A stretch of DNA of 38,065 bases, from positions 1 to 38,065 of the forward strand of contig NZ_AZFZ01000026.1 in NCBI RefSeq assembly GCF_001435895.1, written 5' to 3'. The notes below the pieces were generated by a model. That model was not told the origin of the DNA. It did not search any database and was given only the letters and a program-made list of their open reading frames with translations. A program made the translations under genes and the position numbers. Source of the stretch: Lentilactobacillus parafarraginis DSM 18390 = JCM 14109. GTDB lineage: Bacteria > Bacillota > Bacilli > Lactobacillales > Lactobacillaceae. Shown piece by piece: positions 406 to 3,611 of this stretch (position 1 is its first letter; each line of letters starts with the position of its first letter).

Positions 406-1197
406 CTACGAAACAATCTTCTCCGAATCCAATTCTTTGATTAACCGCATCAGGTCCTTGGCGTTTTGGACAATGTAATCCGCGCCGGCCCGTTGGAGTT
501 TTGCCGCCGCTTCATTGTTTAACGAATTGCGCTTCGCAAATGGTAAGTGACTAAATTCTTCTTCTGACAAACCAATCAGGCTGCTGCCTTCAATGATCCC
601 CACGGTGGTTACCCCGGCGGCCTGACCGGCTAAAATATCTGCGGGAGTATCGCCCACCTGAATCACTGAATGACAATCGCGAATCCGCAATTTATCGATG
701 GCCAAGTTCAGCATATCCGGACACGGTCGGCTCACACCCTCAACGTCCTCAGCTGTAATGTTGATTTGCGGATCGAACCCCTGCTCACTGGCAAGCGGCA
801 AGACCTGGCTCAGCATTGGGGCCGTGTAAACCGACGTTGTGGCAAATCGAATGCCCTGAGTACGAAGGTAGGAAATCAACGTTGGAATCCCGGCCTTTAC
901 CTTTGCGACTTGGGGAAGGGTTTCGATTAAATCCCGATTGAACCATTTATAAATTTCAATTGCCCCGGCTTTCACATCGATATCCGGATGCTTTATGTAC
1001 CACGCCTGCTTGAGATTATCAGCGGATAATAATTGTTGAATGCGGGTGAGCGGATCAACCCCGTTGGATTGATAGAGTTGACGGCGCCCGACTTGGAGGC
1101 CAAATTGTTGAAACGCCTTTCGAATTGCTAGAACCGGTGCTTGGTTTCCATAATCAATTGTGGTCCCTGCCCAGTCAAAAATAACAGCTCTTATCAT
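406..1197 (-). CDS. phnX: Phosphonoacetaldehyde hydrolase-like HAD phosphatase (PhnX family)
   Basis: PhnX cleaves phosphonoacetaldehyde to acetaldehyde and phosphate in 2-aminoethylphosphonate breakdown. The protein (263 aa from the ATG at 1197, normal family length) has the characteristic HAD motif I FDWAGTTIDYG with nucleophile Asp8, the RPCPDML segment, and motif IV VGDTPADILAG. The ATG at 1197 lies 8 nt after GGAG, better placed than the GTG at 1200. Recalled alignment with Bacillus cereus PhnX is gap-free at the N-terminus. It puts Pro49 where the family has the Schiff-base lysine (Lys53 of B. cereus), so the true substrate may differ. No phnW or phosphonate transporter is nearby. The promoter shows 11-bp-phased TTTACA repeats, suggesting phosphate-responsive control. 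HAD membership is certain; the exact reaction is not. Confidence 0.8.
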   Translation of the reverse strand: MIRAVIFDWAGTTIDYGNQAPVLAIRKAFQQFGLQVGRRQLYQSNGVDPLTRIQQLLSADNLKQAWYIKHPDIDVKAGAIEIYKWFNRDLIETLPQVAKVKAGIPTLISYLRTQGIRFATTSVYTAPMLSQVLPLASEQGFDPQINITAEDVEGVSRPCPDMLNLAIDKLRIRDCHSVIQVGDTPADILAGQAAGVTTVGIIEGSSLIGLSEEEFSHLPFAKRNSLNNEAAAKLQRAGADYIVQNAKDLMRLIKELDSEKIVS

Positions 1198-1241
1198 CAC
1201 TCATTCTCCTTTTGGTTGTTTACTAATTTTTCAATAGTTTT

Positions 1242-1295
1242 AGTATAAAGTCGCTGTGTAAATATTTAATGTCACCAACGTAAAAATTATGTAAA
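1242..1295 (-). promoter_or_regulatory. phnX-like gene promoter with 11-bp-phased TTTACA half-sites
   Basis: Read on the minus strand, TTTACA (1290-1295), TTTACG (1279-1284) and TTTACA (1257-1262) lie at offsets 0, 11 and 33, followed 9 bp later by a TATACT -10 box (1242-1247). No good -35 is present, as expected for an activator-dependent promoter. Spacing and sequence match the PhoP box of Firmicutes (direct TT(A/T/C)ACA repeats with 5-bp spacers). The regulator's identity is inferred. Confidence 0.55.
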
Positions 1296-1396
1296 CCCAC
1301 CATGCTTGTGAACTAAATATATCAACCCGGTTTTTAAATAGTTCCGTTCATTAACCGGATAGTTTCCGCCATTGTCCCAGACCAATCTGTGGCCCG

Positions 1397-1472
1397 TTCA
1401 CAAGTTCTTCACAAATCCCCCATACTAATTTCACAAATTCTTCACGGGTTTTCCGCATCCATTCGCTATACT
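1397..1472 (+). promoter_or_regulatory. PhoP-box-like array and promoter of the small unknown gene at 1535
   Basis: Four half-sites, TTCACA at 1397, 1408 and 1430 and TTCACG at 1441, sit on an exact 11-bp grid (the slot at 1419 is degenerate). They are followed by a TATACT -10 box at 1467-1472 with no separate -35. This is the arrangement of a PhoP-activated promoter. The distances to the -10 box (70, 59, 37, 26 bp) are in the same helical phase as those of the divergent phnX-like promoter (48, 37, 15). The 1201-1534 intergenic region otherwise holds nothing I can identify. Confidence 0.6.
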
Positions 1473-1534: not shown

Positions 1535-1888
1535 ATGAACCGCACCAAGCAAAGCGTCCTCAATGATTTAATCACCCTCATGAACGCCACCCAGGATGCC
1601 GCGATCACCAGCATTGAAGTTGCTGAAACTGATCGCCCGCATTCCTATCAACCGGCCCTCACAAAGGGGCCAATTCCCTCAAACCCGAGTTTAGCTCAGT
1701 TCAACGTGGCTTCTGAACTCGCCAAGCGGATTTTAAACGACCAACCGGAAGCCGCCACGCTCGTTAACCAATATCAGCCCGGAATTATCGCCCAGCTCAT
1801 TGAGCAGCACCAAGTGGATTACGAAAATCCCCGGAACGTGGTAAAAGTTGTGAACCGCTGGCTGGGCATCGCTTCGCTCGACGACTAA
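1535..1888 (+). CDS. Small hypothetical protein, paralogue of the next gene
   Basis: This 117-aa soluble, probably helical protein has no signal peptide or membrane segment. It starts MNRTKQSVLNDLITLM and shares with the following gene a conserved core: SLAQFNVASELAKRIL versus NLARFNIAAELTKRMM, then QYQPGI versus RYRPGI, DYENP versus DYNDP, and WLGI. I do not recognise the family. AAGGAG lies 12 nt before the ATG, a slightly long spacing, but no better start is in frame. The promoter carries a PhoP-box-like repeat array, so expression may respond to phosphate limitation together with the divergent PhnX-like gene. Function unknown; I am fairly sure it is a real gene because of its paralogue and promoter. 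Confidence 0.75.
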   Translation: MNRTKQSVLNDLITLMNATQDAAITSIEVAETDRPHSYQPALTKGPIPSNPSLAQFNVASELAKRILNDQPEAATLVNQYQPGIIAQLIEQHQVDYENPRNVVKVVNRWLGIASLDD

Positions 1889-1938: not shown

Positions 1939-1967
1939 TTGCACAGATAACGGCCATCACATATAAT
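1939..1967 (+). promoter_or_regulatory. Sigma-A promoter for the second small paralogue
   Basis: TTGCAC (1939-1944), a 17-bp spacer and a perfect TATAAT (1962-1967) precede the gene at 2027. Unlike its paralogue, this promoter has a good -35 and no TTCACA repeats, so the two copies appear to be regulated differently. Confidence 0.7.
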
Positions 1968-2026
1968 ACAGTTTATATGAAGGGACTTTTCATAAGCTTG
2001 GTTAGAAATCACCAAGGAGCTTATGA

Positions 2027-2419
2027 ATGAATCAAACAAAAGAATCAATTATTAGGGATTTAATTGATATTATGACTGCTAATGAGGGGGGCGCGATTCG
2101 AACCTTGGCCATGCAGATTTCCAAGTCCCATTCGGGGAAAATTACCGCCATTCATCACACTCCCATGCCGGATGAGTCCATTCCGGCAAATTACAACTTG
2201 GCCCGATTCAACATTGCTGCTGAGCTGACCAAACGAATGATGAATGACGTGCCAACTGCCAAGGCGATTATTGAGCGCTACCGACCGGGAATTGTCACCG
2301 AATTAGCGGTCAACCACCCCACCGACTACAATGATCCGCATCACGTTGCGGAAGTTGTCGACGAGTGGTTGGGCATTGAGACAATCAACAATCAATCAAA
2401 GGGCTCGGGATTCATTTAA
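2027..2419 (+). CDS. Small hypothetical protein, second paralogue
   Basis: This 130-aa protein is clearly related to the product of the preceding gene. The N-terminal MNQTKESIIRDLIDIM and the helical core NLARFNIAAELTKRMM, RYRPGIV and VVDEWLGIE match it, while the middle (residues 28-52) is longer and diverged. No known domain, signal peptide or membrane segment is seen. Two ATGs compete: the one at 2023 opens only a very short frame, while 2027 opens the gene, with AAGGAG just upstream. It has its own consensus promoter, and glycerate kinase follows 44 bases later without a convincing terminator, so read-through into that gene is likely. The duplication followed by promoter divergence suggests a dosage- or condition-specialised pair. 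Function unknown. Confidence 0.75.
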   Translation: MNQTKESIIRDLIDIMTANEGGAIRTLAMQISKSHSGKITAIHHTPMPDESIPANYNLARFNIAAELTKRMMNDVPTAKAIIERYRPGIVTELAVNHPTDYNDPHHVAEVVDEWLGIETINNQSKGSGFI

Positions 2420-2462: not shown

Positions 2463-3611
2463 TTGAAATTTGTCATTGCACCAGATTCGTTTAAGGGCGG
2501 CTTGACCGCCAGCCAAGTGGCGGACGCAATCCAAACCGGTTTGAAGCGGGTTTACCCTACCGCCAACTACACATTGGTTCCCATGGCCGATGGCGGTGAA
2601 GGCACCGTCGACGCGCTGGTTCACGCAACCCACGGCCGGCAAATCACCACGACGGTTACCGGACCGCTGGGAACGCCGGTTTCAGCTCATTTCGGCCTCC
2701 TGGGTAACGGCCGCACTGCCGTCATCGAGATGGCCGAAGCAAGCGGCTTCCAACACGTGCCCGAGTCGAAACGTAATCCGCTGATCACCACCACCTATGG
2801 AACCGGCGAACTGATTTCAAAGGCCCTGGATCACCATGTCGACCAAATCATTATCGGCATCGGCGGCAGTGCGACGAATGACGGCGGGGCCGGTATGGCG
2901 CAAGCCCTTGGCGTCGAGTTGTTGGACCTGGCGGGAAATCAGCTGCCATTTGGTGGGGGTCACTTAAACGACCTGGCCGCCGTCAACCTTGCCAACCGGG
3001 ATTCCAGACTCGACCACACCCGCCTGCTCATCGCTTGCGACGTTACCAATCCGCTGGTGGGCCCAACCGGGGCGTCGGTGGTTTTCGGTCCCCAAAAGGG
3101 TGCATCCCCCAGCATGGTGGCAACCCTGGATCATAACTTACGCCATTACGCGGCCGTCATTCACCAGACGATCGGCCGTGACGTGGCAACCGTTCCGGGT
3201 GCGGGGGCTGCGGGCGGCTTGGGCGCTGGACTGTTAGCATTCACCAACGCCAACTTAAAACGGGGCGTTGATCTCGTCATTCAATACAGCGGGCTCAAAG
3301 ACAAGGCCGCTGGGGCCGACTTTATCTTCACTGGCGAAGGTAAAATCGACCGCCAGACCCAATTTGGCAAAACCCCATACGGCGTTGCTCTGGCAGCCAA
3401 AAAAGTTGCCCCAAACGCGCCGGTTATCGCCATTGCAGGCAACGTTGGGTCGGGAATCAACAGCCTTTATCAGTCCCATGCAATCGACGCGATCTTCACC
3501 AGTGTCGCCGGGGTCAAAACCTTAGACGATGCCCTGTTAGATGCTTCCCACGACATTGCTCAGGTGGCCGAAAACATTGCCCGCCTCATTCAAGCCACCA
3601 TGAATAAGTAA
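2463..3611 (+). CDS. glxK: Glycerate kinase
   Basis: It phosphorylates glycerate with ATP, feeding it into lower glycolysis in the cytoplasm; members of this family make either 2- or 3-phosphoglycerate. The 382-aa length and order of motifs are typical of the GlxK/GarK family: N-terminal APDSFKGGLTASQVADAI, MADGGEGTVDAL, the glycine-rich IIGIGGSATNDGGAGMAQALG, PGAGAAGGLGAGLLAF, and TGEGKIDRQTQFGKTPYGVA. The start is TTG at 2463, 8 nt after GAGGAGG in a strong ribosome binding site, and the protein begins MKFVIAPDS exactly as the family does. It is probably co-transcribed with the small gene 44 bases upstream. No glycerate-producing gene is adjacent. Confidence 0.95.
   Translation: MKFVIAPDSFKGGLTASQVADAIQTGLKRVYPTANYTLVPMADGGEGTVDALVHATHGRQITTTVTGPLGTPVSAHFGLLGNGRTAVIEMAEASGFQHVPESKRNPLITTTYGTGELISKALDHHVDQIIIGIGGSATNDGGAGMAQALGVELLDLAGNQLPFGGGHLNDLAAVNLANRDSRLDHTRLLIACDVTNPLVGPTGASVVFGPQKGASPSMVATLDHNLRHYAAVIHQTIGRDVATVPGAGAAGGLGAGLLAFTNANLKRGVDLVIQYSGLKDKAAGADFIFTGEGKIDRQTQFGKTPYGVALAAKKVAPNAPVIAIAGNVGSGINSLYQSHAIDAIFTSVAGVKTLDDALLDASHDIAQVAENIARLIQATMNK

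Follow-up and report, generated by a model that had tools for sequence, protein, structure and literature searches.

Two divergent half-site arrays beside a phnX-like gene of Lentilactobacillus parafarraginis: a Pho box of the genus and a probable operator of a second response regulator

The region between a phnX-like gene and a small orphan gene (gene A) of L. parafarraginis carries two sets of hexameric half-sites that face in opposite directions. The question is whether one regulator reads both sets or each has its own. The original prediction favored a single response regulator activating both genes, which would make the small protein a new phosphate- or phosphonate-stress gene. The window analysed here (38,065 bp) is one whole contig (C174) within a 3.08-Mb genome. 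Our comparison of the genus points to two back-to-back operators, and we consider it likely that two regulators of the OmpR/PhoB family are involved, PhoP acting on the PhnX-like gene and a second regulator, here called X, on gene A.

Geometry and conservation of the two arrays

The features of the locus are listed below (G000, window genome; G003, L. raoultii; G019, L. farraginis; G018, L. hilgardii).

406..1200, minus strand: PhnX-like HAD hydrolase gene, 264 aa, start codon GTG; NCBIfam TIGR01422, 250.1 bits (cut-off 220)
1242..1247, minus strand: -10 box TATACT of the phnX-like gene; all four species have a -10-like hexamer at +48, counted from half-site 1
1257..1262, minus strand: Pho-box half-site 3, TTTACA, offset 33; sequence and four-species comparison
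1279..1284, minus strand: Pho-box half-site 2, TTTACG, offset 11; sequence and four-species comparison
1290..1295, minus strand: Pho-box half-site 1, TTTACA, offset 0; sequence and four-species comparison
1397..1402, plus strand: C-class half-site 1, TTCACA, offset 0; sequence and four-species comparison
1408..1413, plus strand: C-class half-site 2, TTCACA, offset 11; CTCAAA in L. raoultii and L. farraginis
1430..1435, plus strand: C-class half-site 3, TTCACA, offset 33; sequence and four-species comparison
1441..1446, plus strand: C-class half-site 4, TTCACG, offset 44; sequence and four-species comparison
1467..1472, plus strand: -10 box TATACT of the gene A promoter; +70 from half-site 1 in G000 and G003, +59 in G019
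1535..1888, plus strand: gene A, 117-aa protein; relatives in three other species
1939..1967, plus strand: likely gene B promoter; TTGCAC (1939-1944), 17 bp, TATAAT (1962-1967), aligned in four species
1989..2027, plus strand: gene B leader hairpin enclosing the ribosome-binding site; 11 predicted pairs
2027..2419, plus strand: gene B, 130 aa, paralogue of gene A (38% identical)
2463..3611, plus strand: glycerate kinase gene; PF02595, 494.1 bits; TIGR00045, 502.5 bits

The predicted geometry was exact. On the plus strand, TTCACA starts at 1397, 1408 and 1430 and TTCACG at 1441, which places them 70, 59, 37 and 26 bp from the TATACT at 1467. On the minus strand, TTTACA, TTTACG and TTTACA start at 1295, 1284 and 1262 (the 1290, 1279 and 1257 given previously are their low ends), 48, 37 and 15 bp from the TATACT that starts at 1247. 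The phnX-side layout is therefore half-sites at 0/11/33 with the -10 box at +48. All distances on both sides equal 4 modulo 11, as had been proposed.

By the definition used, an array has at least three TTYACR half-sites that fall on an 11-bp grid over no more than 44 bp; the 38,065-bp window contained only two, namely these. None of 20,000 dinucleotide-shuffled versions of the intergenic region (1201-1534) reached three grid half-sites, and no chain of three half-sites appeared in 60 shuffles of the whole window.

Genes A and B were present in 4 of 150 genomes and in 4 of 397 genomes of the family, the window's own genome being counted in both. The gene order in the four species was identical: the phnX-like gene, the divergent gene A, gene B and glycerate kinase. 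Both arrays are retained in L. farraginis and L. raoultii, two of the three relatives that have the gene pair, and are degraded in the third, L. hilgardii. On the phnX side, the first two species have three copies of TTTACA at 0/11/33, and L. hilgardii has CTTACA, CTCATA and CTTACA; the -10-like hexamer lies at +48 in all four. On the gene A side, L. farraginis and L. raoultii fill slots 0/11/33/44, slot 11 reading CTCAAA. The L. hilgardii remnants GTCACG, CTCGAA and GTCACA were placed by eye at 0/11/33 of their own grid, with a TTTACA that misses the grid position of the fourth slot by 2 bp and no -10 box on the half-site grid. The gene A -10 box differs between +70 (L. parafarraginis and L. 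raoultii) and +59 (L. farraginis) by exactly one 11-bp turn. These results confirmed that the two arrays between the divergent genes are real, conserved and far above chance.

Gene A of L. hilgardii is interrupted (L183 3492-3841). A neighbouring gene in that assembly also looks short (130 aa vs 184 aa in L. parafarraginis), so assembly errors are possible, and the break in gene A may be such an error and not proof of gene decay.

The phnX side and the Pho box of the genus

The resemblance of the phnX-side array to a Pho box was borne out within the genome, where pst1, pst2, ugp-like and PAP2-family genes share its half-site layout. The pst1 and pst2 operons are preceded by TTTACR-N5-TTTACA-N16-TTTACA at offsets 0/11/33. 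A genome scan with TTYACR-N5-TTYACR gave 27 matches vs 4 for the reversed pattern. In addition to the window and pst, the matches included the ugp-like ABC-transporter gene (named by eye, with a GDPD gene upstream), the PAP2-family gene, which lies beyond the pst1 operon, and a Y_phosphatase3 gene. The last of these, likely under Pho control, has a mixed T/C array with TTCACC at offset 22. The other matches fall within coding sequences or ahead of genes that have no obvious connection to phosphate. The phn operon carries similar TTTACA sites, with a first step of 10 bp by eye.

The layout also holds across the genus. TTTACA-N5-TTTACA was found 100 times in 24 genomes, vs 17 times for the reversed pattern. 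At 30 pstS loci (of 50 matches), at least two grid half-sites were present in 29 and at least three in 27; the remaining locus, at which the gene is split, yielded none. The best -10 match lay at +48 in 25 of 27 pstS promoters. Because the same layout precedes the pst operons, other phosphate-type genes and pstS genus-wide, the motif, layout and conservation support the phnX-side array as the standard Pho box of the genus.

The available part of PMC4415409 describes the Pho boxes of several bacteria, among them B. subtilis, as direct repeats of 11 nt. The array resembles the PhoP box of Firmicutes in its direct TTnACA-type half-sites, its 11-bp units, its position ahead of the -10 box and its occurrence at pst and phosphatase genes. 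It differs in that this genus uses 0/11/33 with an unconserved slot 22 and the -10 box at +48, and the gene A array differs further in having C at base 3.

As in the phoPR-pst clusters of lactobacilli, phoP and phoR adjoin a pst operon here (in C168), with a further gene upstream of phoP. Lentilactobacillus is among the groups for which this arrangement is described in the accessible sections of a 2024 paper on lactobacilli (PMC11084836). According to the same sections, the pst operon is unstudied in the family and the Pho regulon awaits characterisation. The word "box" is absent from the main text of that paper in the form available, whereas here the box is derived and located at further genes. 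A literature search for PhoP with TTTACA in Lactobacillus surfaced only work on KdpE. For one genus, the present analysis defines a Pho box that is rigid and testable, with the PhnX-like hydrolase as an additional putative target.

The PhoP of this genome was named by its position beside phoR and pst. Its best NCBIfam match was YycF (248.9 of 340 bits), and no NCBIfam model reached its cut-off. Leftward, PhoP would bind TTTACA-N5-TTTACG-N16-TTTACA and would switch on the PhnX-like hydrolase under phosphate limitation. Another regulator of the OmpR type (L076, G000:C186, 2640-3395), whose receiver domain looks unusual by eye, is divergent from pst1 across the pst1 Pho box.

The phosphonate part of the original prediction was weakened by the protein itself. 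The PhnX-like protein agrees with PhnX phosphonoacetaldehyde hydrolase (TIGR01422) in scoring over the model cut-off and in retaining Asp9 and the GDxxxD motif. It differs in having Pro50 in place of the Schiff-base lysine, which is Lys53 of phosphonatase. Pro50 aligned without gaps to residue 53 of the phosphonatase chains (K in 2iof, R in 2ioh). The corresponding proteins encoded next to gene A in the other three species likewise have Pro, whereas the two aligned PhnX-PhnW fusion proteins keep Lys. The genome has a separate phn operon (L078, G000:C215, 6183-11572) comprising phnD, phnC, two phnE-like genes and a PhnX-PhnW fusion, the gene names being assigned by eye. A phosphonate role is doubtful because the PhnX-like protein lacks the Schiff-base lysine, and the protein is more likely a Pho-controlled HAD enzyme of other specificity. 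In L. raoultii, phnD of the phn operon lies about 4 kb from the phnX-like gene.

The gene A side and the TTCACA promoter class

TTCACA-N5-TTCACA matched 103 times in the 24 genomes, vs 11 times for the reversed pattern. Thirty-three of the 103 loci were inspected by eye. They adjoin GH25-type lysozyme, surface-protein, small membrane-protein and various other genes, an alpha/beta-hydrolase gene recurs beside them, and some lie in coding or phage-like DNA; none of the 33 was recognised before a phosphate gene. The arrays beside the alpha/beta-hydrolase gene precede predicted transcripts with CCCC-loop hairpins followed by a terminator. These putative small RNAs are about 133 nt long, with three CCCC loops and a terminator, and often occur in tandem (L003, G000:C193, 1501-2168; also L114, L115, L129, L138 and L140).

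A covariance model of this RNA (R1) was built from seven copies in six genomes. At E <= 0.001, the model found a match in each of the 24 Lentilactobacillus genomes; in three the match was weak (2.5e-7 to 3.5e-4), and in the six source genomes it was there by construction. With stricter filters, the model matched 10 of 201 genomes of the family, nine Lentilactobacillus and one weak match (7.6e-4). Covariation was slight: two pairs changed on both sides, which 50 of 500 shuffles equalled, and the covariation score of the alignment was reached by 11 of 500 shuffles. We infer that the CCCC-loop RNA is transcribed. The RsaE/RoxS small RNAs have C-rich regions and an operator for a response regulator (ResDE/SrrAB), as the available part of PMC4409812 describes. 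The CCCC-loop RNA is similar in being short, with several C-rich regions and a response-regulator-type operator upstream. It differs in that Rfam gave no match for seven loci at the gathering threshold, and none to RsaE/RoxS for two loci at E up to 5. A literature search on Lentilactobacillus small RNAs gave no title on such an RNA among those listed.

These RNAs provided a test that could separate the two arrays. Promoters were picked by the PstS protein or by the RNA model, not by base 3, and half-sites of the form [TC]TNAC[AG] were counted on the grid without fixing base 3. All 85 grid half-sites at pstS promoters had T at this base, and all 45 at small-RNA promoters had C. The promoters counted are orthologous, and the counts do not represent independent events. 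The small-RNA set comprised 30 loci of 46 matches. The 22 loci with at least two grid half-sites contributed; the other eight had fewer than two, one owing to masked upstream letters. In L. parafarraginis, L. raoultii and L. farraginis, base 3 is C throughout the gene A array and T throughout the phnX array.

The spacers gave a similar division. Log-odds favoured the C class for five of the six gene A pairs, by 3.9 to 5.7 bits, or by 3.4 to 3.7 when only unique spacers were used. The sixth spacer was indifferent (1.1 bits, or -0.2 with unique spacers), and all three phnX pairs fell in the T class. The training sets held 101 and 98 spacers, with the gene A and phnX entries removed and chance and coding matches included.

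Judged by base 3, and by the spacer of five pairs out of six, the gene A array appears to belong with the TTCACA class. Most likely, gene A answers to a second OmpR-family regulator. Because its array matches a different code, shared with the small-RNA gene, gene A is probably not a phosphate gene. The idea of one regulator for both genes, and with it the small protein as a phosphate gene, thus finds no support in the base 3 and spacer results. Rightward, regulator X would bind two pairs of TTCACA half-sites and control the orphan gene A. X would be the regulator of the TTCACA promoter class of the genus, of which the CCCC-loop RNA is the clearest member. PhoP and X would share one geometry, with 11-bp direct repeats and a -10 box at 4 modulo 11.

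Two observations qualify the class. The best -10 match of small-RNA promoters lay at +48 from the pair in 21 of 22 cases. The gene A array has no -10 box at this C-class distance, its distances in L. parafarraginis being +70 and +37, and gene A is therefore not a standard member of the class. In the unseeded slot 33 of TTCACA-seeded loci, base 3 was C in 8, T in 13, A in 12 and G in 1 (n = 34), and the third array of L129, which is TTCACA-seeded, has TTTACA in slot 33. The T/C split is therefore true of good half-sites and not of every slot.

These slot-33 counts also bear on the alternative that PhoP alone binds both arrays, with TTCACA as a weaker variant and gene A as a low-affinity, late Pho gene. 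The absence of a C preference in slot 33 fits this alternative, as do the common 11-bp grid and phase of the two sides, the pair-skip-pair order of the gene A half-sites, which resembles the Pho layout of pst, and the mixed T/C array at the Y_phosphatase3 gene. In addition, the PhoP boxes of B. subtilis are described as accepting C at base 3. The division of 85/85 against 45/45, the spacer composition and the 0 of 33 inspected TTCACA-seeded loci (of 103 matches) recognised by eye before a phosphate gene argue against it. We regard PhoP as the sole regulator as unlikely, and some weak PhoP binding at the gene A array may occur.

It is also conceivable that the gene A array is a repressor operator, at which X would cover the -35 region and block RNA polymerase. 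The last half-site is 26 bp ahead of the -10 box in L. parafarraginis and L. raoultii and 15 bp in L. farraginis, which is within the polymerase footprint, and the gene A offset differs from the +48 standard of the C class. However, no -35 hexamer able to work without an activator was seen by eye at gene A, and the small-RNA arrays of the C class are likewise close to their -10 boxes. Repression by X is accordingly given a low probability.

The consensus of WalR (YycF) is TGTWAH-N5-TGTWAH, close to the reverse complement of TTTACA-N5-TTTACA. Binding of WalR to one or both arrays is the least probable reading: TGTAAA is indeed the reverse complement of TTTACA, a WalR-like regulator (C222, named by eye) is present, and the TTCACA loci include GH25-type lysozyme and surface-protein genes by eye, but the arrays are oriented towards their genes in the direction opposite to that of WalR sites, the TTTACA layout is tied to pstS, and TTCACA fits the WalR consensus poorly.

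Candidates for regulator X and the genes beside the arrays

With two regulators as the preferred explanation, the proteins that could act as X were compared. The genome holds 11 OmpR-family matches. Regulator sharing among five genomes singled out no one X: the WalR-like C222, C183, C146 and C178 all have counterparts in all five (9 of 41 loci were without sequence, 2 of 32 matches were without a locus, and PhoP was assumed shared from its position beside pstS). The counterparts of C183 (L171) are 72-84% identical in all five genomes. Its best NCBIfam match, PieR (NF041209), reached 280.7 of 450 bits and is below the cut-off; in alignment, the recognition-helix region of C183 is close to those of RegX3 and MtrA. 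RegX3-type helices probably read TTCAC. The S. coelicolor Pho-box motif is GTTCACC in the part of PMC4415409 that was available. C183 is an attractive candidate for X, though as a guess, and C222, C146 or C178 may also be considered. A sign of autoregulation was sought, and no TTCACA array was present in the eight regulator upstream regions inspected (of 11). For PieRS, the available text of PMC12234432 contains none of the terms "consensus", "direct repeat", "binding motif" and "promoter". A literature search found no work joining TTCACA, Lactobacillus and a response regulator.

We tentatively speculate, with somewhat less than even confidence, that Lentilactobacillus has an undescribed two-component regulon with PhoP-like geometry, distinguished by TTCACA in place of TTTACA, which would drive the genus-wide CCCC-loop RNA, an analogue of RsaE/RoxS whose three loops are exposed, together with envelope genes, and into which the four-species orphan gene A would have been recruited. 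The data suggest two response-regulator codes of the same geometry, one base apart and side by side. If this is correct, the intergenic region would be a natural two-code junction at which phosphate and a second signal are read back to back, and it would serve as a neat test, set by nature, of how cross-talk among OmpR-family regulators is avoided.

The protein encoded by gene A gave no Pfam or NCBIfam match up to E = 1. Its AlphaFold2 model is helical with a mean pLDDT of 77.5, residues 31-46 being under 50. Foldseek of the model against the PDB gave no match at E <= 0.001, and a profile search of the PDB returned a single match (E 0.41).

The leader of gene B forms a predicted hairpin, CATAAGCT...AGGAGCTTATG, around the ribosome-binding site. 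It is conserved in the four species, and 0 of its 11 predicted pairs show a compensatory change. Gene B is preceded by what appears to be a separate consensus promoter, and for this reason gene B and the glycerate kinase gene need not depend on either operator.
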